From a virus, in the IMG/VR virus record IMGVR_UViG_3300010153_000020, positions 1-40,590 of that record: a DNA stretch of 40,590 bases. One strand, given 5' to 3'. The notes beneath the pieces were generated by a model. The model saw only the letters and a program-made list of their open reading frames with translations, was not told the DNA's origin and did no database searches. The translations under genes and the position numbers were made by a program. Position 1 is the stretch's first letter. The number at the start of each line of letters is the position of its first letter. Shown here in pieces: positions 1-32,649 of this stretch.

Positions 1-684
1 TATTTTATATGCTCTGCCTGAACCTTCTTCATAAAATGCTCTCATATTCATTTTTGTAGCATCCAATTGGGTTCTCAACTTAGCTAACTCAGTGGGATTA
101 TCAGTAACTGATATTCTTCTAGATAAAGATTTAAATGTTTCTTGTAATTTAGAGACCTGTCTTTGCCCTGCACTATCAAGTGTAGAGATGTTAATGAATT
201 TTTCACCCAAATCTAGAGAAAAGTCCTTCCAATCGCCTAGAATCTCATTTACCTGTCTATTTGTTTCATTGCTATAATCTCTATAGTATGATGTTTCTTT
301 TATAAGGTCTTGCTCAAACTTAGCTAGTTCAGGAACTCTCTTTAATGCTGCTCTTGGCAAGTGAAATTTAGCCCATAAAGGACCATCTTTCTTTGTTATC
401 ATAGTATTAAAGGTTTCTAAACCATATTCAAATTTTCTAACATCTCTTAAGTTTATAGGATTCTCTGCTAAATCATATACCTTACCTGTATATGTCATAA
501 ATACTTCTTCGAAAGTTCCGAAATTATTCCAGTTACCATCTTGAACATTCTTAAACCTGCCACCACGTTCCCAATCAAGAGCAAGCTTCTCCAGTCTTTC
601 AGCAACACGCTTCTTAGCTTCTGGAGTCATTTTATCTTCTCTTCGTTTTTCAGTAGCTCTCATGCCACAAGTCCAAATTGACAT
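1..684 (-). CDS. Helical virion protein, 3' end cut by window edge
   Basis: An open frame of 228 codons starts at ATG 684-682 and runs off the left edge without a stop. A Shine-Dalgarno AGGGGA overlaps the stop codon of the giant gene upstream and sits a few bases before the ATG, which fixes the start. The protein begins MSIWTCGMRA and is charged and mostly helical, with Trp/Phe-rich patches (WAKFHLPRAAL near residue 103) and coiled-coil-like stretches later. I recognise no family. It lies 9 bases downstream of the giant protein in the same operon, so an ejection or other internal virion protein is the simplest guess. The true length cannot be judged. Certainty that it is a gene is high; its function is unknown. 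Confidence 0.85.
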   Translation of the reverse strand, partial: MSIWTCGMRATEKRREDKMTPEAKKRVAERLEKLALDWERGGRFKNVQDGNWNNFGTFEEVFMTYTGKVYDLAENPINLRDVRKFEYGLETFNTMITKKDGPLWAKFHLPRAALKRVPELAKFEQDLIKETSYYRDYSNETNRQVNEILGDWKDFSLDLGEKFINISTLDSAGQRQVSKLQETFKSLSRRISVTDNPTELAKLRTQLDATKMNMRAFYEEGSGRAYKI

Positions 685-693
685 ACAGTTCCC

Positions 694-3600
694 CTATTTA
701 TAGCAGTTTAATAATTCTCTAGTTCTATCTACAGCTGACTCTCGTACAGAGCCACGATCACCTACATTTTTTCTTCTTATTGATTCTGATTCGCTAATTA
801 ATACCTTCTTAGCTCCAAAGTTTCTAACAGTACCATCTGGATTAGTAGCGTACTGCTCTATACCCCATTGTTTTTCAACCTCTATACCTTTAGCTTCCAT
901 TACCTTAGAGGCTTTATAAAGAACGATAGGATCTACTAATGTTCCACTAGCATGCTCTATCATTACTTTTGCAGCTTCACGCTCATTGCCAGTACTTATG
1001 TCTCTTGCTTCAAATATTTCTTGATTTAAATATCTCTCTGTTGTTAAATATCCCTCTAAAGAACCAGGCTCTGTAAACATATTAGATTTAAGCTGTTCCA
1101 TATTAATATTAGGATTTCTTGAACTTATGTAAGCAGCATTCTTCATAAGATTAATATCATTTAGAATCTCCTCTGCTTGCATCTTTAATCCAGAATTTGG
1201 TTTATATTCACCACTTGCTAATTGTGACAATAAAGACATAACAGGTTCGCTCATTCTATTTTCTAGATACATATAATCAAATACAGCTTGTTTGCTATTC
1301 ATAACATTATTACTTCTAATAGAAACAATCTTATCTGACACCTCAGGAGTCAACATTCTTAGTATTAAAGCTTTTCTAAAAGCAATATCTTCTGTTTTTC
1401 CAAACAAGAAATCAAAGAATATAGCTTGTCTTTCCATACTATAATCTGTCTGTCCCTGCCTGTTAGTTAAATCAGAAGATTCTCTTAATTTTATAAGTTC
1501 AGATTGTAATAGTTTATATTCTGACATTAAATAATTCTTTGTTTCATAAGATGAGAACCTACGCACATTTCCATCTTCTAATCTAATAGAAGGAGTTCCT
1601 GCAAAAGCTTCAAATAATGCTCGCAAGCCACCTTGCTCTACACCATCTGTGACTTGATATCTTCTTCCATTTACTACCATTTTATCTCTACTAAGAATAG
1701 GTTGTCTATTAAATTGACCTGGCAATATAACTTCTTTAATACTACCCTTCATGTCAATAACAACTACTGGCTTATCTTCAGCACGATATGTTTCTATTCG
1801 ATGTCCTTTATGGAATATAGTCTCTGGAGGATTGCCAGGATCTTTAGAAGCAAATTTATAAGATAAAGCTTCCTCCATCATAGCTTTCATTTCTTGAACT
1901 CTCATTAATTTATTTTGAAGAGAAGTAATTTCAAGAGTATCCATATCATTTCTTGTGAAATTCTTTTTTGTTTCAATTTCTATTTGCAAGCTCTTTTCTT
2001 TAGCAGATAAATCTACAAGTCTTAATGCCCTTGCTTCATCTTTTACATAATGTTTTAAAGCACTATTGAACATATTATTATGTTTTGCCTCTGTAGTATT
2101 TCCAGGGATTGCTGATAGACCATTATCAATATATTCTTGAAGCTGTTCTACTTCAGACTTACCTCTACCATATTGCCCTGCTTCTTTAATATTATTCTGT
2201 TGCTTATAAATCTCATGCATTTTTTGCATACCTATATCATAAGGATTGTTAGGATTTTGAAAGAATTTTCTAGCTTGATTTAATCCATCAAATTCTATCC
2301 TTTCATCGATTCCCCATCTCTTTGAAGGATCTAATGATTTAGATACCAAATTAGAGAATGCATTATGATAGTCCTGTAGTCTTGCTGAATTCTCTTGCCC
2401 AGCTTCGGATACCTCTACTCCCTTATTATATCTTAAATACTTATTTAAAGGATGTATAAGCCTAGACATTATAGCATTTTTTACATGCTCAAATTGAGCT
2501 ACATTCATATCTTCAGCTACTTTAAATTCTTTACCCTTTTCTTGATAGCCTATTTCAAATATTCCATTTTTACCAAAATATATTTCAGCTAACTTGTTCT
2601 CAAATTCTTTCACATTTTTAAAGGAAGGTAGGTTTTTATAAATATCAATATATTCAATAGCAAGTTTAGATATAGTATCTACCATATTAACATACTTACC
2701 ATTCCTATTTAATCTAACTTGGAAATTGCTTTGATTCTGATACATTCTTTTAGTGCTAAAACTCATCACCAATGGATCATTTTTATATATATTAGATAAG
2801 TATGTAGCAACTTGATGCATCTTTATAAACCTACCTCTAGCTGCATCTACCTCTTTCTGAATAGCCGAAAAATTACCAATGTCTTTACCAATTAATCCAG
2901 GCAATGCTTGAGCAAATGCTCCTTCTCTTACATTAGGGTCAAAAAATCTATCGATAGTAGTTAATGGACTTTCAATTGCATCTGTTACATGTCCTGCTAA
3001 TTTATTAGTTTCTCTCCAAAATTCACCTGGAGCTGATGTATAATTAAAAGATTTGTCAAAATCAAAGTCAGCATCCTGAGGTTTAATAGCATCTCTAGCA
3101 TTCATCATACTAACATTACCTGCATTTTCATCCATATGCCATTTGCCATCATACTTAGCTAGCTTACTGATAACCATATCGCCCATCATATTTCTAGGTT
3201 GTCTACTATTTAACATACCTATACTCAATCCATATTTATCAAATCTACTAGCTGCTTCCCAAATCTTAGTAAAGTCTCCTAAGAACCGATTCTTTGTTAA
3301 TTCATCTATAGCTGACTGCTCTCTTTCAAGAGCATCCTTATAAGCTTTCTTATTATCAGCTGAAATAACTTTATTATTAAAGTCAGCATCTACTAATTGA
3401 CCTTTTTCATTGATATATCTACCTTCTACCTGAAGAAATTTTTGACCTCCAATGGAAACAAAGAATGCATCTGCATCCCTAGAGCCTGTCTCAGCATTAT
3501 ATTTAATCTTCTGTATTAATACATTATGAACATTATTACCATCAGGTTTTAAACTAAATGTTTTATTTGCTGCATAATATGAGGGTACAAACTCTCCAAA

Positions 3601-6600
3601 GTATTGCACAACAGGCTTGTCACCTATTTTACTTCTAACACTACCTTTTAATGTCCCCCAATCAGCTCTCATAACATCTAATGAGCCATGTGTAACTTCT
3701 CCACTACCTATTCTACCATTATTAACAAAGAAATTTATCATATTATCCTGCAACCTTTGTTGTGCCCAAGGTTCTAAAATAAGTCCATTTCTAGTTACAA
3801 TAGAATTTAAAGAGCTGCCTATCATAGAAGGATTGCCTTCTGCAGATAGAGTCCCCAATATTTGTTGAGCCAAAGCTGTTCTATGAAATGGATCTTTATG
3901 AGTATAAGCTAAGTTCTGTTCATATCTATCTATCTTGCCTCTCATATTAATCCAACCAGCTATACCATTATCTGTACTCATATGAACACCTGCATTCTGA
4001 CCAACTAATGGATCGTGTTCTTTTGAAACATTTCTAAGACTAAATGACTCGAATGGTAATTCAGTTATAGTTTGCTTTGACATTCTATTTGGGATATAAT
4101 CATACCAAGCTGACTCTAAATCTATATCTCTACTAGCTAAATCTATTTCAGTATAATTATCTTTTAACTCTTCATTCTTACTTTTTTTAATCTTATTTAA
4201 CTTATTAGCTGATTTAAATGTGAGCATATCAACACCTAAATCACCCAATAAAGTTTCAAGCAAAGGATCATATTGGATAGATGTTTTATTAAAAAATTGC
4301 TCTATTCTACCATAATTAGCATCCTGCTTATTTTCCCAATTTAATTTATTGTGAGTTATAGTAGGTTTTATAGCTCCAGACTTAAATCCTTGTATGTTTC
4401 CAGCATTATCTACTACCAACATCTCTGGATTTATCCCATAAAGGGCTAAATTAGCTAAATAAAATTCTTTTGTGACAAAGGTACTACCATCGACAATAGA
4501 CTTCGTAGTTTCCTTGATTCTATTAATATTATATTCCAGATCTTCTAGAGAAATCTCTTTATTTTTTTCCATTTTCTTTAATCTTATCTCTTCTCTGGAC
4601 AATGCATCGAATATATTTTTCCTAGTTTCACCCCTATCCATTATAGGCTCATCATTGATAGAAGTTGTCTTTACTTTTCTATAATTTCCTTTTGCATCAG
4701 GGATAAGCCAGGACTCTACTTCACTATGAACCTTCTTAAATAAATCAGATTGAGAATTTTTTAATATAAGATTAGCTTTTTCTCTGTTACCTTCGGTAGG
4801 AATAAATCCATTCTTAGTTTCATTTAACTTATCTCTTTTATGTAAGTCTATTATATTCTCATGATTTAATCTAACTTCACCATTTTCAATAACCCCAGGT
4901 ATTTCACCAGACATATTCAATAGCATTCTGGTTAGCTTTACAGCTTCAGCTATAGCTTCTGGTGTCTGGGCTTCTCTTATTCTGGATAATAATTGAGATA
5001 CAGCATTCTTTTGAGCTGTACTTCCTCCAAGATCACCGTCATATACTGCTTCTAATCTTTTAAACAATTCTCCTTGTGGTCCAAATTGAGCTGCAATTTC
5101 TTTATGTATAGAACGATTAAATGCGTCTGTTCTTATTGCTATGGCAGTCCCTTCATTAATTTGCACAATATGAAAATCTTGCTTCATTAATGGCTTATCC
5201 TTAGCATTGCCCTTTAATTTAGAGGCAGTCCCTTGATTATAAAATTCTCGTTTACCTTCTGCATTATATAAAGAGAAGTCACCTGTTCGGAGAGCTGCAT
5301 TAGTCTTATCTAAGTCTACATTTAGAATATTTCGCATTACTCTACCATCGCCATCAAACCCTGATGTTTCAACTAAATATAAATATTTTTGATTAGGATC
5401 TAGCTTAGCCAATAAACCTGTTAATCCCCTATCTTTAGTTTCACCAACAACCTTTGAACCCAAAATAAGTCTATTATTCTGCAAGTCTACTTTGACAGTA
5501 GATACAACTTGCTTAGAGAAATAGCCTGCATTAATTGCATACCAGTCAGCATCTATTTCAGACTTAGAAAGTTTTAAATCGCCTGCAGAATTAGATACTT
5601 CCATCTTTAAACGAAGAGGCTCTGCTATTAAATTATGATAGTTCTTAGAATTTAATTCAATCTTACCTGCTAGACCGTTCAATGTATTTATCATAGTTTG
5701 AACTTGTTGTCGTAATTGAGGATTAGATATCAAACTTGGATCAGAGTAAACATCTCCTAATATATTTCTTCCAATGTTCCTAACTTCATCTGCATTTTTC
5801 CTAATACTTCTATCAACATCAAATAGATTATCTAATTCAAGTTTTGGGATTTGATACTTAGTTGAAAATTGATTCGTAGATATTCTCAAAGCATTATCCT
5901 GTACATCTTTAGTCCCTATAACATCTCTATATGGAGAAAGTTGAGTATCAACAAAATCCTTTATAGTACTTTCATTTAATGCAAGTGTTTGAGCTTTATT
6001 CATAATATCTACAGTAGTTTCAGTTATCTTTGTTAAATAATCTATTCTAGTAGAGCCTACCATATTTTTACTTAAAGCATTAATGACATCATTAATAGAC
6101 CCTTCTTTCTTCCCTAATGCTCTTAATTTATAAACATTTCTTTCTTCCAATGCTGTTTTAATAAAATCACCTAATTCAAGTAATGCTTTTCTCTCTCCGT
6201 TCATAGCTATTGTAATTTCATCATGCTTCTTTCTTAACTTTGCATCTACCTCACCAAGTCCTTTAGATAAATCATTTGCCATTCTACCTAATTTCTCAGC
6301 TTCATGATAAACCAATTCTCCCTGAGTTGTTACTCTGTCAATAGTAATACCATCCCAAGCTGTCTCAGCTGTCGCCTTAGACTTTAAGAGCGATCTCATC
6401 CAAGCACCCTTATCTGTTTCAACTAATCCATCTTGCAATGATGTAGGAAACTTAGATCTTTCAATAGCGTTTGTTAATTTTTCATAATAATTTCTTAACT
6501 CTACATAAGTATCTTTACCTATCTTATTATTCTTCAATAACATAGTTAAATTAGAATCCATATCTTTCATTGAAGGCAATATCGCTGTCTTCCCTTCAGC

Positions 6601-9582
6601 CTGATAATTTAAATTTATATCTTTTAATATTGTTACAAGTCCAGCTTTGGTATCAAAACCAACTTGAACATCATCAATACCAAGTGCATCTATAGACCTA
6701 TCTAATATATCTCTCTTTAAATCTCTTAATGTTTTAGAGTCAGTAAACACATCTCCAAAGTTCTCTCTCATCTTTTCCATAACAGCAGATGCTTCTTCAA
6801 AAGTAACTGTTTTCTTTTGATTAGGAACAGATCCAGCGTTAAGTGATCGTAATACTGAATGCATATCTTCAACAAACTTAGCCACTTCACCAAAGTTCTC
6901 AGGCAAAGATTCAGGTTTTAGTAACTCAGGAACTTCTCTATATAATAACATTCTTTCCATCTTATTTATTAAATCTGAAGCTTCACCAGCACGCATGCCA
7001 TGGTCCTTGCCTCTAGATAAGAATTCATAAGTTCTATCTCTTTGCTGCATTTTAATTACTGTATCATAAGGTAAATGCCAAGCATTATTTTCCAATATTC
7101 GAGGGTCAACTTCCATAGTTTTAGACCACTCAGGACCATATGTGAGTCCCATTAGATTATTAACTGCTGAATCATATGATGACTTAGCATTAGCAGCCAT
7201 CTCCCCATCAATACCTGGAGGCAGTTTACCTTCTATTTCTCTAATCCAATTATTCTTAACTCCCCAATCATATACTGTAGCAAATGCTTGATTGACACTC
7301 CTATCTCCAGTATCAAATTGCTTTTTATTTAATCGTGGACCCTGTATAACTCCAGTATCAGGATCTATTTTATAGAAAGATTTTAATCCTAAAGATTCAT
7401 ACATATCTGTGATAAATTTCTGGAAATATTGAATAGGCTCTTCAGCAGCCTTTATATATGCTTTCTTTCTCCATATTCTCATTTGAGGATCAGCAGTTGA
7501 AGGAGTAAGTATCTTACCTGCAAATTCCATTTTAGAAACATTACTTACTATTTCAAAAGCTTGCTCTGGAGTATACTTGCTAACACCTAAGAAATCAGTC
7601 AATCTATTAGTATCATATTCAGATATTATCTTTTCTGCTACAAATAGTTTATCATTTAAAATCTTAGCTTCTGCTGTAGTAATATCTTTTGCTGAAACTA
7701 AATCAGATACATGTTTATGGAAAGCTGTCTTTAAATCAACTCCATCAATTGCTTCATTCGCTACAAATGGTTTAAATATATTTTCTAATTCTGCAAATTC
7801 AGTTGTTGAGTCCATAGCTCTTTTTATAACATTATCAGCTACTTTCCCTGCATCTGTACTAGTTTTAGGATCACCATAAATATAACTAATAGCTTTTAAT
7901 TGATTTTTATCTACTCCAAATGTCTCTAATCCACCCATCAATCTTCTGAGCTTACTAGCTTTACCACCAATATAACTTTCTACATTACCTGTTTGGAATA
8001 CTGTTTTGAATCCCCCACTACTTACTGGAGTGTGAAAAGAATGTGGAGTCCTGGTGAAATACATAGCTGTCATAATATTTGCTATTCTTTCTTGAGGTGA
8101 ACCACCCATAGCATATTTTAAAGATTCATAACTTAATCCATTTTCCCAAAAAGATTGAGCTAATCCAGTAGAATTCATTGCCATTACACCAGCACCCATT
8201 CTAGGTAATGATTTAAATACATCGCTACCAAATTCCTTAACCCATTCTTTAGGGGCATTAACTAAAAACTTTTTACGCATTTCACTTAAAAACTCTTGCA
8301 TTTCTGCAGTACCAGCTTTATCGCCCTTCTTAATAGTATTCCACCATTCAGCAGGCTTCTGAGACCATTTAGAAGATAACCTGCCTTCTAGATTGCCTCC
8401 AGATATTTTATTCATAGCTGTTAATTGAGCCTTTAGCTCTTTTCGTTTCATATTTTTGATAGGCTTTAGCGATTTGTAACCCTGCTGGAATATTCTATTT
8501 AATCTAGACATATGATTTGCATTAGTTCCACCTTTTACAAATTTCACAGGACCTAATAATGAGAAGAATGCTGCTTCATGCATTGCATCATGTGCCCATT
8601 TACTAGCTATATGATATGGATCAAGAGCTCTACCTGTTGGAGACATTGTATGCTCACCAGTTTCATCATCCCAACCTACTCCCCAAAGACCTTTATGCGT
8701 AGCATCAACTGCAGTATGTAAAGTAGCCATTGCTACACCAATAGCAGCATCATATCCCATAGCTCCTACAAAGAGATTAGCTTTAGGTCCTAATCTTTTA
8801 CCTAATACAGGAATTTTAGTAACAAAGTAATTCATCATCTGCATTGCATCTTCAGGATTATTCTTTGAAACTATCTTAACTGTTTCTTTAGATAATGCTT
8901 CTAAAATATCATCATCTACAATACCAGCTACATCTGACAATGTATTCTTAACACTTTTGCCCATGACTTGCTCAAGCATTTCTGCCCCAAGAGCTTTTTC
9001 AATAGCTCCTGCAGTAGCTGAAGCTGATGCTATCTCATATGCATCATCAACTATATGCTTTCCAACTGTAGCTTCCACACCTTCACGAGTAACTTTTTTA
9101 CCAAGAACTTCAGTAACAGACTCTAATCCTTCTTTTGCTGCTATCTTAGTTCCAGCTTCAGTTAATTCTTCTAAAGATTTCTTAGCAAAATGCTTGCCTG
9201 CTCCTGTGGCTAATCTACCTGCACCTTGAATACCTGCTCTAGCCGCCAATCCTCCGAAAACAAATGATGGTATCATACCTAAAGCTGAACCAATCATATA
9301 TCCTGCTTTACCAGAATTAGTTAATTCACCCCAGTCACCAGCTGCATCTCCAGCTAAGGACTCTTCCCAAGTAGTAACATCATCACCATATACAGCTTCA
9401 TTATAAGTATCTGCTACATCTAATGTCCCTAATGTTCCTTGATCTACAACCCCCCAGAGTGCTTGTCCTAAAAAATCATATACAGCATTTCCAGAAGTTT
9501 GTACTTGAGTATCTTTAAAGGCGCTTGAATGGTCCTCTTGTCTGTCTCTCAAGATAGAGAGAAGCTCCCGATTAGTAGCCAT
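694..9582 (-). CDS. Giant virion protein, candidate two-barrel RNA polymerase (2962 aa)
   Basis: Seen: residues 2127-2129 are R-Q-P inside MLNSRQPRNMMGD, and residues 2170-2176 are D-A-D-F-D-F-D (Asp 2172, 2174, 2176; bases 3055-3069). Known: in bacterial beta-prime, NRAPT is followed about 35 residues later by NADFDGD, whose three Asp bind the catalytic Mg; crAss-like phage virion polymerases carry a DFDxD variant. A G-K-D-I-G stretch follows at about 2232. Residues 1965-2000 might hold the first barrel, but I cannot assign its lysines. The rest is mostly helical, with hydrophobic Gly/Ala-rich segments near residues 94-118 and 265-290 that could contact membrane during ejection. The start follows SD AGGGAA overlapping the previous stop. 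Inference: a polymerase packaged in the capsid and injected with DNA to transcribe early genes. Alternative: a purely structural ejection protein with a chance motif. Confidence 0.6.
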   Translation of the reverse strand: MATNRELLSILRDRQEDHSSAFKDTQVQTSGNAVYDFLGQALWGVVDQGTLGTLDVADTYNEAVYGDDVTTWEESLAGDAAGDWGELTNSGKAGYMIGSALGMIPSFVFGGLAARAGIQGAGRLATGAGKHFAKKSLEELTEAGTKIAAKEGLESVTEVLGKKVTREGVEATVGKHIVDDAYEIASASATAGAIEKALGAEMLEQVMGKSVKNTLSDVAGIVDDDILEALSKETVKIVSKNNPEDAMQMMNYFVTKIPVLGKRLGPKANLFVGAMGYDAAIGVAMATLHTAVDATHKGLWGVGWDDETGEHTMSPTGRALDPYHIASKWAHDAMHEAAFFSLLGPVKFVKGGTNANHMSRLNRIFQQGYKSLKPIKNMKRKELKAQLTAMNKISGGNLEGRLSSKWSQKPAEWWNTIKKGDKAGTAEMQEFLSEMRKKFLVNAPKEWVKEFGSDVFKSLPRMGAGVMAMNSTGLAQSFWENGLSYESLKYAMGGSPQERIANIMTAMYFTRTPHSFHTPVSSGGFKTVFQTGNVESYIGGKASKLRRLMGGLETFGVDKNQLKAISYIYGDPKTSTDAGKVADNVIKRAMDSTTEFAELENIFKPFVANEAIDGVDLKTAFHKHVSDLVSAKDITTAEAKILNDKLFVAEKIISEYDTNRLTDFLGVSKYTPEQAFEIVSNVSKMEFAGKILTPSTADPQMRIWRKKAYIKAAEEPIQYFQKFITDMYESLGLKSFYKIDPDTGVIQGPRLNKKQFDTGDRSVNQAFATVYDWGVKNNWIREIEGKLPPGIDGEMAANAKSSYDSAVNNLMGLTYGPEWSKTMEVDPRILENNAWHLPYDTVIKMQQRDRTYEFLSRGKDHGMRAGEASDLINKMERMLLYREVPELLKPESLPENFGEVAKFVEDMHSVLRSLNAGSVPNQKKTVTFEEASAVMEKMRENFGDVFTDSKTLRDLKRDILDRSIDALGIDDVQVGFDTKAGLVTILKDINLNYQAEGKTAILPSMKDMDSNLTMLLKNNKIGKDTYVELRNYYEKLTNAIERSKFPTSLQDGLVETDKGAWMRSLLKSKATAETAWDGITIDRVTTQGELVYHEAEKLGRMANDLSKGLGEVDAKLRKKHDEITIAMNGERKALLELGDFIKTALEERNVYKLRALGKKEGSINDVINALSKNMVGSTRIDYLTKITETTVDIMNKAQTLALNESTIKDFVDTQLSPYRDVIGTKDVQDNALRISTNQFSTKYQIPKLELDNLFDVDRSIRKNADEVRNIGRNILGDVYSDPSLISNPQLRQQVQTMINTLNGLAGKIELNSKNYHNLIAEPLRLKMEVSNSAGDLKLSKSEIDADWYAINAGYFSKQVVSTVKVDLQNNRLILGSKVVGETKDRGLTGLLAKLDPNQKYLYLVETSGFDGDGRVMRNILNVDLDKTNAALRTGDFSLYNAEGKREFYNQGTASKLKGNAKDKPLMKQDFHIVQINEGTAIAIRTDAFNRSIHKEIAAQFGPQGELFKRLEAVYDGDLGGSTAQKNAVSQLLSRIREAQTPEAIAEAVKLTRMLLNMSGEIPGVIENGEVRLNHENIIDLHKRDKLNETKNGFIPTEGNREKANLILKNSQSDLFKKVHSEVESWLIPDAKGNYRKVKTTSINDEPIMDRGETRKNIFDALSREEIRLKKMEKNKEISLEDLEYNINRIKETTKSIVDGSTFVTKEFYLANLALYGINPEMLVVDNAGNIQGFKSGAIKPTITHNKLNWENKQDANYGRIEQFFNKTSIQYDPLLETLLGDLGVDMLTFKSANKLNKIKKSKNEELKDNYTEIDLASRDIDLESAWYDYIPNRMSKQTITELPFESFSLRNVSKEHDPLVGQNAGVHMSTDNGIAGWINMRGKIDRYEQNLAYTHKDPFHRTALAQQILGTLSAEGNPSMIGSSLNSIVTRNGLILEPWAQQRLQDNMINFFVNNGRIGSGEVTHGSLDVMRADWGTLKGSVRSKIGDKPVVQYFGEFVPSYYAANKTFSLKPDGNNVHNVLIQKIKYNAETGSRDADAFFVSIGGQKFLQVEGRYINEKGQLVDADFNNKVISADNKKAYKDALEREQSAIDELTKNRFLGDFTKIWEAASRFDKYGLSIGMLNSRQPRNMMGDMVISKLAKYDGKWHMDENAGNVSMMNARDAIKPQDADFDFDKSFNYTSAPGEFWRETNKLAGHVTDAIESPLTTIDRFFDPNVREGAFAQALPGLIGKDIGNFSAIQKEVDAARGRFIKMHQVATYLSNIYKNDPLVMSFSTKRMYQNQSNFQVRLNRNGKYVNMVDTISKLAIEYIDIYKNLPSFKNVKEFENKLAEIYFGKNGIFEIGYQEKGKEFKVAEDMNVAQFEHVKNAIMSRLIHPLNKYLRYNKGVEVSEAGQENSARLQDYHNAFSNLVSKSLDPSKRWGIDERIEFDGLNQARKFFQNPNNPYDIGMQKMHEIYKQQNNIKEAGQYGRGKSEVEQLQEYIDNGLSAIPGNTTEAKHNNMFNSALKHYVKDEARALRLVDLSAKEKSLQIEIETKKNFTRNDMDTLEITSLQNKLMRVQEMKAMMEEALSYKFASKDPGNPPETIFHKGHRIETYRAEDKPVVVIDMKGSIKEVILPGQFNRQPILSRDKMVVNGRRYQVTDGVEQGGLRALFEAFAGTPSIRLEDGNVRRFSSYETKNYLMSEYKLLQSELIKLRESSDLTNRQGQTDYSMERQAIFFDFLFGKTEDIAFRKALILRMLTPEVSDKIVSIRSNNVMNSKQAVFDYMYLENRMSEPVMSLLSQLASGEYKPNSGLKMQAEEILNDINLMKNAAYISSRNPNINMEQLKSNMFTEPGSLEGYLTTERYLNQEIFEARDISTGNEREAAKVMIEHASGTLVDPIVLYKASKVMEAKGIEVEKQWGIEQYATNPDGTVRNFGAKKVLISESESIRRKNVGDRGSVRESAVDRTRELLNCYK

Positions 9583-9591
9583 GTATATTCC

Positions 9592-10599
9592 CTATTTTAA
9601 AATTTCTTGGACATCATCTATATTTAGATATCCATCTTCAATCAAATCATCTAAGATTGTTTCGCTAATTTTTCCTAAATTGCTATCTGCTTTATTAATT
9701 GCTGCATCCAATACAGCTTTCTGTTCAAATGCTGCTTCATATTTTTCTTCAAAATTCTCTAATGCGGAATAAGCATTACCTAAAATGTCCTGAGCCTGCT
9801 TATAATCATCACTCCAACCCATATGACCTTGTTCAGGATTCCACCTAAATAATTCATTGTCAATCTTTTCCATGCCAGGCTCTTTAAATGCATCTGACCA
9901 TCCTGTGAAAAGTTGAGTAAATAGTCCTCCAATATGCCCCGCATAACTACCAACTGGTCCCATTGCTGGATTTGATAAAGGAGCATTTCCTAGTATCCAT
10001 TCAGCTGGATTCCACCAATTTATAGACATTTCTTCTTCTTCTTTAGATTTAATCTTAGTCAATTGAGATAATTTCTCTTCTATGTCTGCCTTCAATATAC
10101 TTTTCTCATCAGCTAATGGAATTAATGCATCTGAAATCATTTGATATTGACTCTTATCAACACCTAATTCACCAGATTCATTTGTATTTAGCATGAGTGA
10201 AGTTTTACCTTCATTCTCTTCCAATAATTTATTCACCTCTGGATTATCAAGTATGCTCAATGCACTTATATCTATATTTTCTAATTCATCTTCATCCCAT
10301 AAAGCTGCAAGTTCTTTATTGCTTAAATCTCTATCTGTGGTTTGAGTGTCAGTAGGATCAGACCATGAAAACATATCTTGACCAGAAGTACCCACATCTT
10401 CTTGCAAGGAAGTAATCATATTTACATTAATTTTGTCTTGTATACTTGAATATGAAGTAAGTAAATCAGCTACTGGAATCTTTTTGCTGCCAATAGTTCC
10501 ATTAGTTAAATAATTATGCTTCTCTTCATAGGTATCAAATGAAGATAGTGTATTTAATATATGTTCTTGTAATTGTATTTCTGGATGCTTTGTGCTCAT
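9592..10599 (-). CDS. Helical virion (ejection-cluster) protein, 335 aa
   Basis: I do not recognise a family. The protein is acidic, with helical N- and C-terminal parts (coiled-coil-like at about 255-335). A central Trp/Pro/Gly-rich stretch near residues 193-235 (WWNPAEWILGNAPLSNP, then HIGGLFTQLFTGW) looks amphipathic and could contact membrane. Its ATG shares one base with the stop of the 462-aa gene (TAATG at 10599), with AGGA a short way upstream, so the pair is translationally coupled. It directly precedes the giant gene. The position in the block 13690-1 suggests an internal or ejected virion protein; this rests on context only. Confidence 0.8.
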   Translation of the reverse strand: MSTKHPEIQLQEHILNTLSSFDTYEEKHNYLTNGTIGSKKIPVADLLTSYSSIQDKINVNMITSLQEDVGTSGQDMFSWSDPTDTQTTDRDLSNKELAALWDEDELENIDISALSILDNPEVNKLLEENEGKTSLMLNTNESGELGVDKSQYQMISDALIPLADEKSILKADIEEKLSQLTKIKSKEEEEMSINWWNPAEWILGNAPLSNPAMGPVGSYAGHIGGLFTQLFTGWSDAFKEPGMEKIDNELFRWNPEQGHMGWSDDYKQAQDILGNAYSALENFEEKYEAAFEQKAVLDAAINKADSNLGKISETILDDLIEDGYLNIDDVQEILK

Positions 10600-11987
10600 T
10601 ATAATCCTAATCCTTTTAAAATATTATCTTCTTCTTCTTCACTACCAGAACCCGATGGCAATACAACCTCTTCTTCTTCGAATACAGCTAAAATATCTCT
10701 TGCAAAGTATTCATTAGCTTCAACTATAAAATCTTTAAAAGTCATATGGTCAGGGAATCCAAATAATGATTGAGCAGTTTCATCTAATTCTTTTCTTTTA
10801 ATATCTCCCTTAGCTTTACCACCATGAGGTAAAGAATAATATTCCCATAGTTTGTCTAATTTATTTCTAAGCTCATTGTAATCAGGTTTACCACCCTGTA
10901 TTTTTCCATAAGGACCGATTTCAGCTGTGCTTAATTCTACTAGAGTTTTATAATCTGCAGTATATTCTGCTAACTTCTCAGGCGATGTATCTGTGAACCC
11001 ATGCATATTAGCCCATAAGAATCCTACATCTTCATTAATTAATTCAATATTTTTATAAGCAGAATCTAATCTAGCTCGATCATCCTCAGTTTTAACATTA
11101 CCTTCTAGATTTTGAGCAATAGTCCAATAAGTATCTAATTGTCCTAATTCAAGTTTAGTTGAACCACCTGTTATTCTCATATTAAAGTATTCAGCGACAT
11201 TTTTATCTTTTTCTTCTTCTTTACTCAAGGTATGTTTGTCTTTTTTAATTAACAATTCCAAATCTTTTATCTCTTTAGTTATATCAGTACTTTGCAATTT
11301 GGCTAACTGAGCCATAGCAGGGCCTGTATTTCCTGCAAAGTATTCCTTAATAACATTTAACTCAGCATTATCTTTCTGAGCTTGAGCAACCACTGTAGCA
11401 TCTTTAGATTGTAAATTTGCCTCTATAATTGTAGGATCTATATTATATATATCTAAATATCGTTCATAGCTTAAATCATCAATATTCCACTTCTCATCAG
11501 CTCCTGGACCACCACCACCTGCCATAATATTCTTAGCTCTATGTATTCCACTCGCTAACAAATCAGATAACTCAGCAGAACTTTCTTTCCAATATTCAGA
11601 TTGACTTGAGTAATGCTCAGCTAATTCATTATAATTATCAAGTTCAGGCTTTTGAGTATTAGCTATTAATTGTTTTGAGCCATGAGTACTATTGTAATCT
11701 TCGATAGCATCTAAAGATATACCCAATTGATATATATTGTCTTTTTTCTTTTCAAAATCCTGTTCATATGCAAGAGATAATGCTTTATTTTCTTTGTATA
11801 AATCTTGTGATTGCTGATATTTTTGCTGTGTTAATCTTAATCCTGCTTCTAATGCATACTTTTTCTCAAGCATCATTTCATCATGAGCTTCTTGTCTACC
11901 CATCATTTGATATTGTAATAATAATTTAGGCAATTCTTCGAAGAAATCTTGCCATGGAGATCTCTCTATAACTATTCTACTTCCCAT
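10599..11987 (-). CDS. Alpha-helical, coiled-coil virion protein, 462 aa
   Basis: The protein is rich in Glu, Lys, Gln and Leu, with long predicted helices across residues 30-110 and around 230-265. It has a Gly run (AGGGGPGADEKW) near residue 155 and a very acidic tail (about 435-457, with E-E-E-E). No enzymatic motif or membrane segment was seen and I recognise no family. It starts 10 bases after the Hint-domain gene stops, with AAGG before the ATG, and its stop overlaps the next ATG. It sits between the Hint protein and the 335-aa protein in what looks like the ejection cluster, so a helical internal or injected protein is likely, by position only. Confidence 0.8.
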   Translation of the reverse strand: MGSRIVIERSPWQDFFEELPKLLLQYQMMGRQEAHDEMMLEKKYALEAGLRLTQQKYQQSQDLYKENKALSLAYEQDFEKKKDNIYQLGISLDAIEDYNSTHGSKQLIANTQKPELDNYNELAEHYSSQSEYWKESSAELSDLLASGIHRAKNIMAGGGGPGADEKWNIDDLSYERYLDIYNIDPTIIEANLQSKDATVVAQAQKDNAELNVIKEYFAGNTGPAMAQLAKLQSTDITKEIKDLELLIKKDKHTLSKEEEKDKNVAEYFNMRITGGSTKLELGQLDTYWTIAQNLEGNVKTEDDRARLDSAYKNIELINEDVGFLWANMHGFTDTSPEKLAEYTADYKTLVELSTAEIGPYGKIQGGKPDYNELRNKLDKLWEYYSLPHGGKAKGDIKRKELDETAQSLFGFPDHMTFKDFIVEANEYFARDILAVFEEEEVVLPSGSGSEEEEDNILKGLGL

Positions 11988-11996
11988 TTTTAATCC

Positions 11997-13049
11997 TTAC
12001 TTAGGTTCACTAGTTGTGAGTTTATATAAAGGCTTATACCATAAATAATTCAAGTTATAAAACCACTTAAATTTATTTGCTACTCTCCATCCCCATAAAG
12101 CTAATTTATGTGGTAAAGGTCCATCAAATATAGTGCAAGCTATATTATCTACTATAACAGATCCCTCTTCTGTAAATAAATCGTACTTACCTTTCATCAT
12201 CTTATGTTCAACGGAATGCACTTTAACGCTCTTTAAGGTACCATTTTCGACAATATTAATTTCATCTCCAGGGTGTATATATCTAGCCTTTTTTGTCTTT
12301 TTAATTCCATTAACAAATATTCTATGTCTAGCAGTGACTTTTAATTTTGAATCACCTGCCTTTATAATAGTATAATAGTATTTATTTTTTGAATCTTTTG
12401 TATTAAAGAACATATCTTTAACTACTTTAGAATATATAACATCTCCTGAATTATTGAATGCTTGAATCATGTCTCCATATTCTACATCCTTAACTTTTTT
12501 AGTTATGCCATTTTTAAGAGTAACTATACTATTGCCATGGAAACAAGATTTTTTATCATCTTTATCAGCATCAGCAGCAGTTTCAGCTGAAACAATATCA
12601 GCTGCAAATTCTGATTCATATTGAGCATATGCTGATTGTTTTTGTTCTTGAGCTTGATTGAAAGCACTTTGCCTGCCTGCTTGAGTAGCTCCAAATAATT
12701 CTGCTCGTTGCGCTTCCATTCTTTGTTTTATATCACCAGCACCTTCAAATCCTCTCATAGAAGCTGTAGCTGCACCTTCTTGTGTTAATTTAGAAAGATT
12801 ATTCCTATTAGCAGAAGTAAGTTCACCCATCCTTCCTCTCATTACATCTTGTATTCTATCTATTTTATCTGTATCAAAGGCTGAAAAATATTTTGCATAA
12901 TCAGATCCAACCCCTGCTTTAGCAATAAGAGCATTTAAATCTTCATTAGACATTTCGGCTAATTGTTCTGGGGTTATATCTGCAAGTTGATTCTCATCCC
13001 ATCCAGAACTGCCAGGACTGTGTGGGTTAGTGGGTCTCATATCAGACAT
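11997..13049 (-). CDS. Virion protein with C-terminal Hedgehog-like Hint (autoprocessing) domain, 350 aa
   Basis: Residues 1-168 are a Gln/Ala/Glu-rich helical region ending in DKDDKKS. A Hint domain starts at Cys169-Phe170 (CFHGNSIVTLKNG). Y-G-D at 191-193, Y-S at 206-207, V-T-A-R-H at 238-242 and I-A-C-T-I-F at 303-308 match Hedgehog CF, IGD, YS, VTPAH and ASCYAV in order. From the Cys to Y-S the spacing equals Drosophila Hedgehog with no gap. Thr239 and His242 are the expected block-B catalytic pair. There is no terminal His-Asn plus C-extein nucleophile, so self-cleavage or nucleophile transfer is expected rather than splicing. The position of Hedgehog Asp46, needed for cholesterol activation, is Phe214. 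An aromatic tail (311-345) follows, where Hedgehog has its adduct-recognition region. Known chemistry: the Cys makes a thioester that a nucleophile resolves. Processing here, and any adduct, are inferred. Confidence 0.85.
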   Translation of the reverse strand: MSDMRPTNPHSPGSSGWDENQLADITPEQLAEMSNEDLNALIAKAGVGSDYAKYFSAFDTDKIDRIQDVMRGRMGELTSANRNNLSKLTQEGAATASMRGFEGAGDIKQRMEAQRAELFGATQAGRQSAFNQAQEQKQSAYAQYESEFAADIVSAETAADADKDDKKSCFHGNSIVTLKNGITKKVKDVEYGDMIQAFNNSGDVIYSKVVKDMFFNTKDSKNKYYYTIIKAGDSKLKVTARHRIFVNGIKKTKKARYIHPGDEINIVENGTLKSVKVHSVEHKMMKGKYDLFTEEGSVIVDNIACTIFDGPLPHKLALWGWRVANKFKWFYNLNYLWYKPLYKLTTSEPK

Positions 13050-22300: not shown

Positions 22301-23080
22301 TTATCCTTTTATTAATTTACCCCATAATGAGGTTTTGCCTTTTATAATTTCAACTACTTCTACTTTAAAATTCCCGCCTTTAAACCAATCCACGATAGCA
22401 AATGCATGATTCCAATTAGTAAGTAACCCTCTTAACCAATCTTCATCTGCTTCTATATCCTTTAAACATCCTAAACTCCATGAGCTTAATGTACCTCCTG
22501 CAACAGTTTTAGTATGTCTTTGCAAATCATGTGTGTGTCCATACATTATATTCTGTCCATATGCATCTAAATGTTTAAATGCATGATACTTTGATGTGTA
22601 TTTTCCATGAGTAAAACTCAATTTTCCTATTCTTAAATTCTTCTTTCTATTATAAGGATGGTATTTATATCCTCGCTCTTTTAATCTTAATGCATTCTCA
22701 GTCATATACTGCTTTAAATAAGGATATCTTTCTACAAATTTATCTAACCATACCTCATGATTACCTTGGACAAAATGTCTTTCTTTAACTCCTGCTTTAT
22801 CTAAAGATTCATCTATCCAATCCATTCCAGCATTAACTTCATTAACATCTTGATCTAACAATGGAATTAAATCTTCCATAGGTTTTGCAGATCTTCCTCT
22901 CCAATAATGAGTACTAAAATAAGACCATTCACCTGTATCACCTAAATCAATATAAATATCTGGTTTAACTATTTCTATTGCTTTTTTAACAACACTTATT
23001 GCATCTGGATCATGCAATGGGAAATGCTTGTCTGGTGTTACTATTGCCCTTTTAATAACTCCATTGTTAGACTTACTCAT
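22301..23080 (-). CDS. Calcineurin-like metallophosphoesterase, 259 aa
   Basis: The metallophosphoesterase motifs appear in order: D-x-H at Asp17 and His19 (PDKH), G-D at 47-48 (DLGDTGEW), G-N-H-E at 106-109, T-H-G at 157-159 and Y-G-H-T-H at 180-184. In this superfamily they bind two metal ions and hydrolyse phosphomono- or diesters. The length fits a single-domain enzyme. No signal peptide or TM segment was seen, so it should act in the host cytoplasm unless packaged. It is embedded among structural genes, with a TAATG start after the small membrane protein at 23080. The substrate cannot be told: nucleic acid 3' ends, nucleotides or a signalling nucleotide are all possible. Confidence 0.9.
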   Translation of the reverse strand: MSKSNNGVIKRAIVTPDKHFPLHDPDAISVVKKAIEIVKPDIYIDLGDTGEWSYFSTHYWRGRSAKPMEDLIPLLDQDVNEVNAGMDWIDESLDKAGVKERHFVQGNHEVWLDKFVERYPYLKQYMTENALRLKERGYKYHPYNRKKNLRIGKLSFTHGKYTSKYHAFKHLDAYGQNIMYGHTHDLQRHTKTVAGGTLSSWSLGCLKDIEADEDWLRGLLTNWNHAFAIVDWFKGGNFKVEVVEIIKGKTSLWGKLIKG

Positions 23081-27496: not shown

Positions 27497-28993
27497 CTAT
27501 ACCCAGATAGCGTGAGTTTCTGGACAACACCATTCCATTCCCGCTTCTGTTAGTATTTGATCTACTCGTCTGTCGACCCCAGAGTTCTCAAGTGTTTGCA
27601 CACCTACGTAGACTGATGTATCTCTATTTAAACCATTACCAACTAGTGGTCTATAAGAACAGTATTTCATATTAATACCAAGCATCTTAACATTAGTACC
27701 ATCAAGGTGGATATTTCTAGCCACATTCATGTCACCATATATTGTAGATATAGTAGTAATATCAATACCAAATACTTTCTTCTTGCCAGCTATTGAGAAA
27801 TCAGCTCTATAATTTGCTGACTTTTCTAAGTTGTTTCTGAAGTAACCATCTAGTTTATGCAACCAGTTATATACTGCAGTATTGCAGAAGAATACTGTTG
27901 CATTTGCATTATTATACCTAGGATCTAACATAGCTGATAAATCATCTAAGAAATCATCTTGTGTCTTAGACGCAAGAGTCATACTAAATGAATTACCATA
28001 TGTTGAAATAAACTCAACAGCACCTTGTGTTGTATTTATTCCACCTGTAGTTTTTTGTGATCCGAATAGTAAAGATTGCTCAATATCCCATTTATGTTCA
28101 ATTAGCTTTTCTTTCCATATTCTTGCCCACTCATTTCCTTCATACTTGAGAACAGTGGCTCTGTCTGTGTTATTCATAACAGCTGCAGTCTTCCATATCT
28201 GTGTCTGTCCGTGTGAAGTACTAAATGGCTGGTCTTCCCAAGTTTCTGGGTAACCAGTTCCAGCACCATGAGCAGTACCTACAACATAACATCTGAATGG
28301 TTCAAGGTCTTCTTGAGATTTAGATGAGATTGCTGCGCCTACTACATCATCACCATCAGGCATTCTAAATACTGCCGATGTGCCTTTAACACATGTAGCA
28401 TTTACAATTGCATGATTAGCTGCACTAGTTGTATCAACTGAATTAACTTTCCATAATGTGTAACCATCATTAGTTGCTGAAGTAAATGCACCACCTGTAG
28501 GAGCTTTGTTAATCTTAATGATTTGCCCAGGTATAAAGAACTTTGGTTGAGTTCCTGTTACACCATCGTAATAATCACAAGTTTGCCCTTTGATGTTTAC
28601 TAAGTTACCTTCAAAGTTATAATCAGTGAAGAATTTAAAAGAATATATACTTGAACCAGCTGTAGCTGCCGCACTTGTATCCGCATTATCTGGATTAGTT
28701 GCAGGTACAGAAATTCCTACCTCACTAAACTCTGCTAAGTATGCATATCTTTTTGAATAAGATGAACGTCTTTCAGTGAATTTGAAAGTTGGATCATCAG
28801 TTGGTTTTTTTGAAACCATGCTCACGAATCTAAAGAAAGGATCTTGTGCTAGTGCTAATTCTGTTACCCTATTACCGAAGTTATACTTCCGTCTCAGGGC
28901 ACCCGTATTAATACTAGACTGAGTTCCTGTCAGCGAGCTATGGTCTTGATCTGAATAGAGGGAATTTCCCACTATCGATGTACTATCTGCCAT
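27497..28993 (-). CDS. Major capsid protein, 498 aa
   Basis: The N-terminal region (ALRRKYNFGNRVTELALAQ, then FFRFVSMVSKKPTDDPTF and FKFTERR) and a body of mixed strands and helices with KLIEHKWDIEQSLLFGSQ and FGIDITTISTIYGDMNV fit a large HK97-type capsid subunit. The length is in the usual range for that class. The order portal, scaffold, this gene, small decoration proteins is the classical head-module order. Bases 28994-29033 can form a hairpin touching its SD (AAGGAG), so expression may be controlled by leader structure. The assignment rests mainly on order, size and recalled similarity; fold identity is inferred. Confidence 0.85.
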   Translation of the reverse strand: MADSTSIVGNSLYSDQDHSSLTGTQSSINTGALRRKYNFGNRVTELALAQDPFFRFVSMVSKKPTDDPTFKFTERRSSYSKRYAYLAEFSEVGISVPATNPDNADTSAAATAGSSIYSFKFFTDYNFEGNLVNIKGQTCDYYDGVTGTQPKFFIPGQIIKINKAPTGGAFTSATNDGYTLWKVNSVDTTSAANHAIVNATCVKGTSAVFRMPDGDDVVGAAISSKSQEDLEPFRCYVVGTAHGAGTGYPETWEDQPFSTSHGQTQIWKTAAVMNNTDRATVLKYEGNEWARIWKEKLIEHKWDIEQSLLFGSQKTTGGINTTQGAVEFISTYGNSFSMTLASKTQDDFLDDLSAMLDPRYNNANATVFFCNTAVYNWLHKLDGYFRNNLEKSANYRADFSIAGKKKVFGIDITTISTIYGDMNVARNIHLDGTNVKMLGINMKYCSYRPLVGNGLNRDTSVYVGVQTLENSGVDRRVDQILTEAGMEWCCPETHAIWV

Positions 28994-30004: not shown

Positions 30005-32299
30005 TTAATCAGAACTATCCTTCTTTTGCAAATCATTTTTTATTTTCTCTGCATCTAGAGCTAGTTTCTGATTTTGAGTGCTTACATTATTATTCATAAC
30101 ATTACGTAATAATTTTTGTTCTCCCTCTGTCTGAGTATACTGCTTATTCATGTTAGATTTAACTTCTTCTTTCTTCTTATTAATCTCAACATCAGCTTGC
30201 ATAACCTTTTGCTTAATGCCTGCTTGAACAAGTTGTCTCTCAAGGGTTTCAATTGTTCCTTCTTTATCTTTAAGAGATTCCTCCATTTGCCCAATCTGTC
30301 CTTGTAACTGAGCATATAAACTCTTTCTTTTTATAATATTTTCTTTATTCTTTAAATCTGTTTCAGATAATAAAGCTATATCATCTATAACACCTAATTG
30401 CATTAATTGCTTTAATTCTTCTAGATATGCCCATCTATTTACAGGGAGTGTTGAACCTGCTACTATTCTAACATCATATTTAACAACACTTATATCCATT
30501 GATTTACCTATTGCTTCGCCCATATCATTATAAATAGGTACATTTATTTCGGATTCTTTCTGCTCCTGTATAGCACTTGGTTGAATTAACCTAAATCTTT
30601 TATGTGCTGTATATACTGACTGAGCAAATTGAATTACTGTATCACCTAATTTTTTCAAAGAAGGTTCTATAGATGTTGTCATCCATTGTTTAATTCTTCT
30701 TGTTCCGTATTCATCTAAAGCAAGCATCCCTCTATATGTGTCACTTGCACCTCCAGAATCACCCATCATTGAGCTATAGATTCCAGCTAAATATTCCATA
30801 TCTCCCTTTGCTTCCTGTACAATCTGGAAGAATGCATTTGCTAAAGGAGCAGGCATCACAGGTGTAGGTCTTTCTACTCCAGGTCTTATAGGTAATAATG
30901 CCCCAGGTGCAGCTGAATACTTCTCCCATATATCTGAATCAATAGATCCTTCCTCATACATCCAACGTAATGATGAACCTAATGATGCATTATGTACCAT
31001 TATTTGATGTGCTTTATTAATCTCTTGCTGCTTACCTATCAATGGAGCTACTGCACTAATTGGATATGGTGTTCCTGTCCATTTGTAATGAAAAGGAATT
31101 AAAGGATAATCTTTTACTCCCTCAGGAAGAATATTTTCTGAGATTAATTTATCGCCTATTACTATTATTTGTTTTATACGAGTATCATAGAATTGAACTT
31201 GATCTACGATATTATTAGCAATATCCTCATTTTGCATTAATACTTTATATTCTTTTTCGGATACCACTAGATTTTCTATTTTAGATGCTTCAGCTTGTAA
31301 TTGACTCATTACTTCTTGCTCATATGCCATCAACTGATCTTGCATCATTTTCTGTTCTTTTTCTAATTCTAATTGCATTCTCTGTGGGAGCATCTTTCCT
31401 TCTTCAACAGCCATCTGTAATTGTTGTTGAGTTTCTAAGAATTTAACTTCCATCTCTGCTTGCATTTCCTGAACAGCAACTTGAGCTTGTTCTTTAATTT
31501 TATTTAAAACTTGCTTATTGGGTGGAATCCTGTAGAATACATTCATATATGATACTTTAATTTTTTCATATACTTCAAAATATTCAGCTAATAAGTCTTG
31601 TTCACCCTTTTCATTTGAAGCAATGCTAGAAGATTCTGTTGTATCGTTATATGAAAATAACTTCTGGTCTCTCCCTCCCATTTCTCTAGTTGACCAAGAT
31701 TGCTGAGATTGCTCATCGCTACTAGCTTGACTTATCTTTCTTTTAGCATCTGGGAATAATTTCATTAAATGATTTTTAGGCAATACTTTTCTAACTAATA
31801 CATATGCAGCATCCCTAAACAACATATCTCTAGATTTAGGATCTATATATATATCAAATGGTTCAGGTTGAGTAATAACAACTTCTCCCATTCCATTGTC
31901 CATATCACTATCAACTGAAACTAATAGGTAACCAATTCCTTTTGTAATAGAATCATTAATTGTATTAGCATATAAAGTGCTTCCTTCAGATAAATTCCAA
32001 ATGTAATCACATAAATCAGATAATACTGCTGCGACATTACTATCACTGCCTTCTACTCCAACAGCTTGCCATCTAGGTGTTTTTGCTGTTGCATAAAAAT
32101 TTAACATTTCTACAACTGGAAGAATCCTATTTATTATAAATGTAGGCATCCCTTGTTCTTCTAAGGAATTTTTTTCATCAGCAGTTAATTGCTCGTCATG
32201 TGCAAAATCATATCCTTTTTGATTGACACTTTCCCACTGCTTTCTTGTAAAATTGTTAGAAAGCTTATACATATTCCTAACCTGATCTACTTTTTTCAT
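30005..32299 (-). CDS. Portal protein, P22-like, 764 aa
   Basis: The N-terminal region has FIINRILPVVEMLNFYATAK and LSDLCDYIWNL, followed by ITKGIGYLLVSVDSDMDNG and PFDIYIDPKSRD, the usual opening of long P22-type portals. Residues about 266-346 are a Gln/Glu/Met-rich coiled coil (MQAEMEVKFLETQQQLQM) that looks like an insertion. The core resumes with IPFHYKWTGTPYPISAVAPL, GALLPIRPGVERPTPVMP and YRGMLALDEYGTRRIKQW. The last 120 residues form a charged coiled coil like the P22 portal barrel. The portal is the dodecameric DNA gate at one capsid vertex. The start overlaps the previous stop (TAATG at 32299), with GGAG upstream. Confidence 0.9.
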   Translation of the reverse strand: MKKVDQVRNMYKLSNNFTRKQWESVNQKGYDFAHDEQLTADEKNSLEEQGMPTFIINRILPVVEMLNFYATAKTPRWQAVGVEGSDSNVAAVLSDLCDYIWNLSEGSTLYANTINDSITKGIGYLLVSVDSDMDNGMGEVVITQPEPFDIYIDPKSRDMLFRDAAYVLVRKVLPKNHLMKLFPDAKRKISQASSDEQSQQSWSTREMGGRDQKLFSYNDTTESSSIASNEKGEQDLLAEYFEVYEKIKVSYMNVFYRIPPNKQVLNKIKEQAQVAVQEMQAEMEVKFLETQQQLQMAVEEGKMLPQRMQLELEKEQKMMQDQLMAYEQEVMSQLQAEASKIENLVVSEKEYKVLMQNEDIANNIVDQVQFYDTRIKQIIVIGDKLISENILPEGVKDYPLIPFHYKWTGTPYPISAVAPLIGKQQEINKAHQIMVHNASLGSSLRWMYEEGSIDSDIWEKYSAAPGALLPIRPGVERPTPVMPAPLANAFFQIVQEAKGDMEYLAGIYSSMMGDSGGASDTYRGMLALDEYGTRRIKQWMTTSIEPSLKKLGDTVIQFAQSVYTAHKRFRLIQPSAIQEQKESEINVPIYNDMGEAIGKSMDISVVKYDVRIVAGSTLPVNRWAYLEELKQLMQLGVIDDIALLSETDLKNKENIIKRKSLYAQLQGQIGQMEESLKDKEGTIETLERQLVQAGIKQKVMQADVEINKKKEEVKSNMNKQYTQTEGEQKLLRNVMNNNVSTQNQKLALDAEKIKNDLQKKDSSD

Positions 32300-32649
32300 T
32301 ATTCTCCTGTAAAGGTTGAACTACCAGCTAAAGTTTGTGCTTCAGATTTAGTTAATATACTAAAGTTTGGGTATGCTTTACTAGCACCTAATGCTACTAA
32401 CTCACTTAGCACCCCTTCCTTCATAGACCATTCGCCTTTAATGATACAAAAGGCCTTATCGTATGAATAAGCAGGAACTCCTACCTTGCCTGCCCATATA
32501 ATATCATCCCATGTAGGAGCTGATTTATATGTTATAGTATCATCATCTGCTACTGATTCTACTATTGGATATAGTGCTTTAATTTTAGTCCCAACAGCAC
32601 TATTATATGCACTGCTAGGTATACAGAAATACATTTCATAATTAGTCAA
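32299..32649 (-). CDS. Small unknown protein upstream of portal, 116 aa
   Basis: The frame is open back to an ATG at 32709, but that start lies well inside the adhesin gene and has no SD. TTG at 32649 has GGAG eight bases upstream and overlaps the adhesin stop by only 8 bases, so I prefer it. The product reads TNYEMYFCIPSSAYNSAVG and later TWDDIIWAGKVGVPAYSYD, KAFCIIKGEWSMKEGVLSEL and FSILTKSEAQTLAGSSTF. It looks like a compact alpha/beta domain with Trp and Cys. I do not recognise it. It is coupled to the portal through TAATG and may be a virion or assembly factor. The choice of start is moderately supported. Confidence 0.6.
   Translation of the reverse strand: MTNYEMYFCIPSSAYNSAVGTKIKALYPIVESVADDDTITYKSAPTWDDIIWAGKVGVPAYSYDKAFCIIKGEWSMKEGVLSELVALGASKAYPNFSILTKSEAQTLAGSSTFTGE

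Follow-up and report, generated by a model that had tools for sequence, protein, structure and literature searches.

The window, by which we mean the whole stretch of 40,590 bases of a virus record, carries a virion operon on its minus strand. This operon starts with genes for an endolysin-like M15 peptidase, lectin-like proteins, a P22-like portal, a scaffold-like protein and an SU10-type capsid protein, and continues after the capsid gene with a metallophosphoesterase, tail proteins, proteins of 462 and 335 amino acids, a giant protein and the first part of a protein of ~1,030 amino acids. The giant gene lies near the operon end, and the gene order at this end was common to three relatives (contigs of 54.1, 49.6 and 82.9 kb). 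Genes of an early type, encoding a primase/DnaB helicase, an Erf annealing protein, an SSB-like protein and a DUF932 protein, occupy the opposite strand, and a terminase large subunit was recognised in one relative. The genes of most concern here are as follows.

1..684, minus strand: start (228 amino acids) of a ~1,030-amino-acid protein, with 28-40% identity to proteins of 1,020-1,050 amino acids that adjoin the homologues of the giant protein; it follows the polymerase gene in 3/3 relatives examined.
694..9582, minus strand: giant virion-module protein of 2,962 amino acids, a predicted single-chain two-barrel RNA polymerase, with more than 40 homologous contigs; complete homologues have about 2,950-3,210 amino acids.
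9592..11987, minus strand: two unannotated proteins of 335 and 462 amino acids, directly upstream in the operon, partially conserved and without a family match; candidate ejection-channel partners.
27497..28993, minus strand: major capsid protein, SU10 type (PF17236, E 1.1e-21).
30005..32299, minus strand: P22-like portal protein (PF16510, E 9.5e-56).

Several other genes were also characterised. A 350-amino-acid virion-module protein (11997-13049, minus strand) contains a hedgehog/intein-type Hint module near its C-terminus (PF01079, E 1.1e-24, residues 164-319), which was absent from the position-nearest proteins in three relatives. The metallophosphoesterase (phrog_221; 22301-23080, minus strand) lies in the tail-gene region, and a member of the same family is likewise found in the crAss-like phage phi14:2. 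Upstream of the portal gene, proteins of 1,690 (32642-37714, minus strand) and 401 amino acids (37714-38919, minus strand) carry lectin-like Laminin_G_3 domains, together with CBM_4_9 in the larger; both are likely to be receptor-binding, and neither gene is conserved in the relatives examined. The early arm of one relative encodes a ThiF/E1-like protein (L073:6088-6741, plus strand; PF00899, E 1.9e-18).

A repeat inside the 82.9-kb contig indicated a genome unit near 54.6 kb (~54 kb). The major capsid protein of the window matched SU10_MCP only, whereas that of phi14:2 matched Crass_capsid and not SU10_MCP; the phage is hence no crassvirus. The portal proteins also fell into different families (phrog_156/P22_portal in the window, phrog_6547 in phi14:2), and the ~1,030-amino-acid neighbour had no match among the phi14:2 virion proteins. 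Membership of the Crassvirales was rejected on the SU10-type capsid, the P22-type portal and the size of the genome unit, as compared with ~95-100 kb.

The giant gene is an open reading frame on the minus strand, running from 9582 to 694 from an ATG to a stop codon without a break, whilst the plus strand over the same interval is riddled with stops. A reading of this DNA from sequence only, which gave no strand, had claimed a 2,962-amino-acid protein with the catalytic signature of a two-barrel RNA polymerase, R-Q-P at residues 2127-2129 and D-A-D-F-D-F-D at 2170-2176, and both motifs were found at exactly these positions. The protein comprises an N-terminal region, a further ~1,100 residues, the predicted polymerase core and a final ~540 residues, such that ~1,600 amino acids precede the core. 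Its features, all on the minus strand, are as follows.

8215..9582, minus strand: N-terminal domain (amino acids 1-456) with conserved Gly-rich hydrophobic stretches at ~90-125 and ~270-290 and invariant G94, G98 and G102; a candidate envelope/ejection domain.
2323..4785, minus strand: predicted RNA polymerase core (amino acids 1600-2420), from an AlphaFold2 model and its Foldseek match to 6VR4.
4183..4491, minus strand: predicted beta-like barrel (DPBB-B) block (amino acids 1698-1800) with K1739, K1766 and K1794, from the invariance of the lysines and hhalign to the crAss block.
4366..4368, minus strand: codon of K1739, in an I-K-P motif.
3028..3525, minus strand: predicted beta-prime-like barrel (DPBB-A) region (amino acids ~2020-2185), strand-rich in the AlphaFold2 model and covered by the hhalign windows with DADFDFD.
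3196..3204, minus strand: R-x-P motif, R2127-Q2128-P2129.
3055..3075, minus strand: predicted metal-binding motif D-A-D-F-D-F-D (amino acids 2170-2176), with D2172, D2174 and D2176 present in every homologue read.

The R-x-P motif lies 45 amino acids upstream of the aspartate triad. When the same protein was shuffled 20,000 times, an R-x-P 25-60 amino acids before a D-x-D-x-D occurred in 2.9% of the shuffles, falling to 0.4% when A or G was required ahead of the first of the three aspartates. As 2.9% of shuffles match, the bare motif is modest evidence and a lead only, though it is far beyond chance once homologues are counted in.

Library searches with the 2,962-amino-acid protein yielded no match in Pfam (the T7-like RNA polymerase domain, PF00940, included), in PHROGs or among PDB sequences, and no usable one came from a tblastn comparison with isolated phages. 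A pattern search for relatives over the whole protein also returned none, its patterns having fallen in unconserved stretches. A DNA pattern for DADFDFDK retrieved 12 virus contigs, with every match located inside a giant open reading frame of one family. Because this selection itself uses the motif, the search was redone with motif-free patterns, taken from an alignment of residues 1560-2060 (17 loci) and from the equivalent of residues 1640-2060 in a second clade (21 loci, one of them on a contig that ends before the motif). R-x-P followed by three alternating aspartates was found in 17/17 and 20/20 of the motif-reaching loci, 37/37 in total. No relatives were identified in bacterial and archaeal genome contigs, and no prior report of this polymerase family was found in the open-licence literature.

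In their cores the clades of the family share no more than about 20% of residues, yet R2127, P2129, D2172, D2174, D2176 and K2177 were unvarying in 36/36 aligned members, and K1739, K1766 and K1794 were identical in all 31 aligned members with a residue at these sites. Variation was seen in the middle of R-x-P (Q, T or V) and in the residue before the last aspartate (F, M or L), with one clade (three contigs) reading DADYDMD. Conservation of the three aspartates among homologues had been set as a check by the sequence-only reading, and they were invariant both in the aligned members and in the motif-free loci.

A more divergent variant was encountered in the 82.9-kb contig (L071; 82,923 bases), which contains one genome unit and part of a second, different relative. 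The latter encodes, in the same place as the giant gene, a protein of 2,830 amino acids (P0003; L071:959-9451, minus strand) that shows homology with the 2,962-amino-acid family over its N-terminal ~400 residues (hmmsearch E 6.6e-14), this domain being the sole part with sequence likeness between them. The P0003 core, which is beyond the reach of sequence comparison, reads ERGPRKG...GDWDGDH and therefore carries a cellular-type D-x-D-G-D. The contig may be chimeric; the P0003 gene nonetheless lies within its own intact operon. With its D-W-D-G-D, P0003 may reflect a swap, between members of the group, of the core or of the catalytic loop alone.

The sequence-only reading had also likened the motif to that of the crAss virion polymerase, said to have a similarly relaxed fifth position; phi14:2 gp66, named a catalytic RNA polymerase subunit in its RefSeq record, indeed reads RIPNQG...GSDFDIDK. 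BLAST and HMMER found no match between gp66 and the giant protein, and sequence-profile likeness was weak. Gp66 (KC821624, 45265-51807) and nine relatives were aligned for profile comparison. The invariants of this crAss family, namely the D of a DAQ, three lysines, R, P and D/D/D, occur in the same order as in the 2,962-amino-acid family, so that the order D-K-K-K...R-x-P...D-x-D-x-D has been kept independently in both, the first D being N in 9 clade 2 members of the latter. With hhalign, the lysine block aligned to the crAss lysine block at P=4.8e-4 and the aspartate loop, aligned separately, to its crAss counterpart at P=0.009. When the whole-protein profile was slid past the crAss blocks, lysine-block windows ranked 1-3 of 48 and DADFDFD windows 1-4 of 42, and reversed and column-shuffled controls were clearly lower. 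A core profile of 31 sequences (A8) aligned with the crAss profile (A7) at P=6.6e-4, again over the lysine block.

Fold prediction pointed in the same direction. A first AlphaFold2 model (amino acids 1560-2740, 18 sequences; pLDDT 74.9, pTM 0.65) had as its two best PDB matches in Foldseek the plant two-barrel polymerase RDR2, without significance. In the viral library BFVD it matched a crAss protein of cr118_1 (8.6e-9), an entry named DNA helicase from a record that contains a gp66 homologue, and a 'putative RNA polymerase' of cr111_1 (1.4e-4); the unnamed viral proteins also matched there are probably relatives of the 2,962-amino-acid family. A second model, restricted to the core (amino acids 1600-2420, 31 sequences; pLDDT 81.5, pTM 0.82), ranked the virion-packaged RNA polymerase of phi14:2 (6VR4) first among 350,542 PDB chains (E 5.3e-8, probability 1.00). 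The two-barrel polymerases RDR2 and QDE-1 took ranks 2-12 and 14 (E 0.006-0.7) and were followed by the large subunits of Pol II and the ASFV RNA polymerase with non-significant E-values. Over the length of the query the global TM-score is a low 0.38, and confidence in the modelled catalytic loop was poor (model residues 569-574, pLDDT <50).

Taken with the profile alignment and its controls and the invariant catalytic residues, the fold match upholds the claim of a two-barrel RNA polymerase, and we consider it almost certain that the protein belongs to this fold and family. With high probability it is an RNA polymerase akin to the crAss virion enzyme, though far diverged from it. The further suggestion of a place in the crAss lineage stands in part: the fold is closest to crAss gp66, but by its capsid and genome the phage is no crassvirus.

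We estimate at roughly 85% the probability that the giant protein is a single-chain DNA-dependent RNA polymerase with two double-psi barrels, carried as capsid cargo by a short-tailed phage of ~54 kb; its role as a virion-borne early polymerase would have the same standing. Whilst homology, fold and invariant residues were computed, we infer that the protein is catalytically active on DNA, is packaged and ejected, and uses promoters. Against this reading stand the blank Pfam, PHROG and PDB sequence searches, the weak likeness to gp66 in sequence profiles, the low TM-score, the poorly modelled catalytic loop and the early intergenic regions, which shared a promoter motif no more than shuffled sequences did. 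The one line of evidence for packaging is the position of the gene in the operon, and the earlier proposal that the protein is injected to start early transcription is consistent with this place and, by analogy, with the known cases.

Among the alternatives, an unpackaged two-barrel polymerase, expressed from the virion operon at a late stage for late or middle transcription, is improbable. Of the two-barrel RNA polymerases of phage P23-45, one is indeed a virion protein and another is not (PMC10770324). However, the gene studied here lies at the end of a structural operon and encodes a non-polymerase N-terminal part of ~1,600 amino acids, as in virion RNA polymerases, and an enzyme made late would be unable to start the early genes.

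It is very unlikely that the protein is a degenerate, inactive polymerase retained only as an ejection or internal virion protein. Motif-free giant ejection proteins do exist in a comparable place, for example gp35 (2,016 amino acids; L081:16062-22112, minus strand) of Roseobacter phage CRP-810, the one isolate whose capsid is related. Gp35 lacks a DxDxD and was on that account rejected as a relative of the 2,962-amino-acid protein; comparable phages thus seem to differ in whether they carry a polymerase. In the family itself, R2127, P2129, the three aspartates and the three lysines have persisted despite the low identity between clades, and lost activity is unlikely since catalytic residues would otherwise not stay invariant.

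Scarcely any probability attaches to a two-barrel polymerase with another function, RNA-templated or primer-making, in the manner of RDR/QDE-1. The Foldseek ranks of RDR2 and QDE-1 would agree with such a role, but gp66, which ranks first, is a virion enzyme that works on DNA, a dsDNA phage particle would not be expected to hold RNA templates and the relatives own a primase-helicase. That an unrelated ejection protein, of the T7 gp16 kind or another, bears the motif by chance, as the 2.9% of shuffles might allow, is extremely unlikely given the fold match to 6VR4 (5e-8) and the 37/37 conservation.

Packaged single-chain virion RNA polymerases are established in crAss phages (PMC10172136), P23-45 (PMC10770324) and N4 (PMC12633501). 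For the virion-borne early polymerase preferred here, ejection and anchoring at the inner membrane are proposed because the domain layout equals that of N4 gp50. The N-terminal hydrophobic domain and the neighbouring proteins (335, 462 and ~1,030 amino acids) would leave the capsid before the DNA does and bridge the envelope, with the 2,962-amino-acid protein anchored at the inner membrane and its core (amino acids ~1600-2420) refolding in the cytoplasm. There, D2172, D2174 and D2176 would bind two Mg ions, whilst K1739, K1766 and K1794 of the other barrel, together with R2127, may handle the RNA end and the substrate NTP. The early arm, which runs in the opposite direction and includes the primase/helicase, Erf and SSB-like genes, would then be transcribed during DNA entry.

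The proteins described here make up a new family, strongly diverged but of an established type, in podoviruses that are not crassviruses, where it was previously unannotated. We give even odds to the broader proposition that they represent a lineage of their own, which branched off early among single-chain two-barrel RNA polymerases, combines an N4-like arrangement of membrane domain, core and tail with a cellular-type catalytic fold, runs early transcription in a widespread group of small podoviruses and has seen the core, or just the catalytic loop, swapped between members. A family of ~3,000-amino-acid proteins in more than 40 such contigs would widen the range of packaged two-barrel RNA polymerases and would offer a compact, single-protein system for host-independent early transcription. 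The varied neighbours of R-x-P and D-x-D-x-D, even D-W-D-G-D, would enrich the sparse data on whether such enzymes diverged from, or predate, the cellular RNA polymerases.

Among phages, the crAss-like, P23-45-like and jumbo groups are already known to package two-barrel RNA polymerases. P23-45 gp96 is a giant virion protein with a two-barrel RNA polymerase domain (PMC10770324). Its polymerase is N-terminal and fused to the tape measure of a long tail, whereas the core of the present protein lies in the C-terminal half of an ejection-type protein of a short-tailed phage, and gp96/gp64 were absent among the best 50 PDB matches listed. The core of N4 gp50 adopts the single-subunit fold of the T7 type, which has no relation to double-psi barrels, and its likeness to the present protein is one of convergent layout only. 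A search for a second, T7-type RNA polymerase in the record found none, although the search's own control was also silent. Gp50 joins its polymerase core to an N-terminal domain active on membranes and to a C-terminal part, and leaves the particle via a channel of neighbouring gene products (PMC12633501). This giant cargo protein of the Schitoviridae shares with ours the same domain layout and adjoins ejection-channel genes, these being candidate roles in the window.

YonO of SPbeta, likened to the present protein by its published description, is a single-chain two-barrel DNA-dependent phage RNA polymerase (PMC5467207), a prophage enzyme of ~100 kDa. QDE-1 and RDR2 are likewise two-barrel single chains, but are non-viral enzymes of eukaryotic RNA silencing (RNAi) and far weaker fold matches. 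The closest known system is phi14:2 gp66, top among the PDB fold matches, a single chain with both barrels, the lysine barrel preceding the aspartate barrel, R-x-P followed by D-x-D-F-D-x-D-K and an equal order of K/K/K/R/P/DDD, likewise encoded by a large gene of the virion module, on the same strand as the structural genes. The two differ in length (2,962 versus 2,180 amino acids), in the last variable position of the motif (F, M or L here, I in gp66) and in their phages, with an SU10-type capsid and ~54 kb genome here and a Crass_capsid and ~100 kb genome there, and they share no significant full-length sequence likeness.
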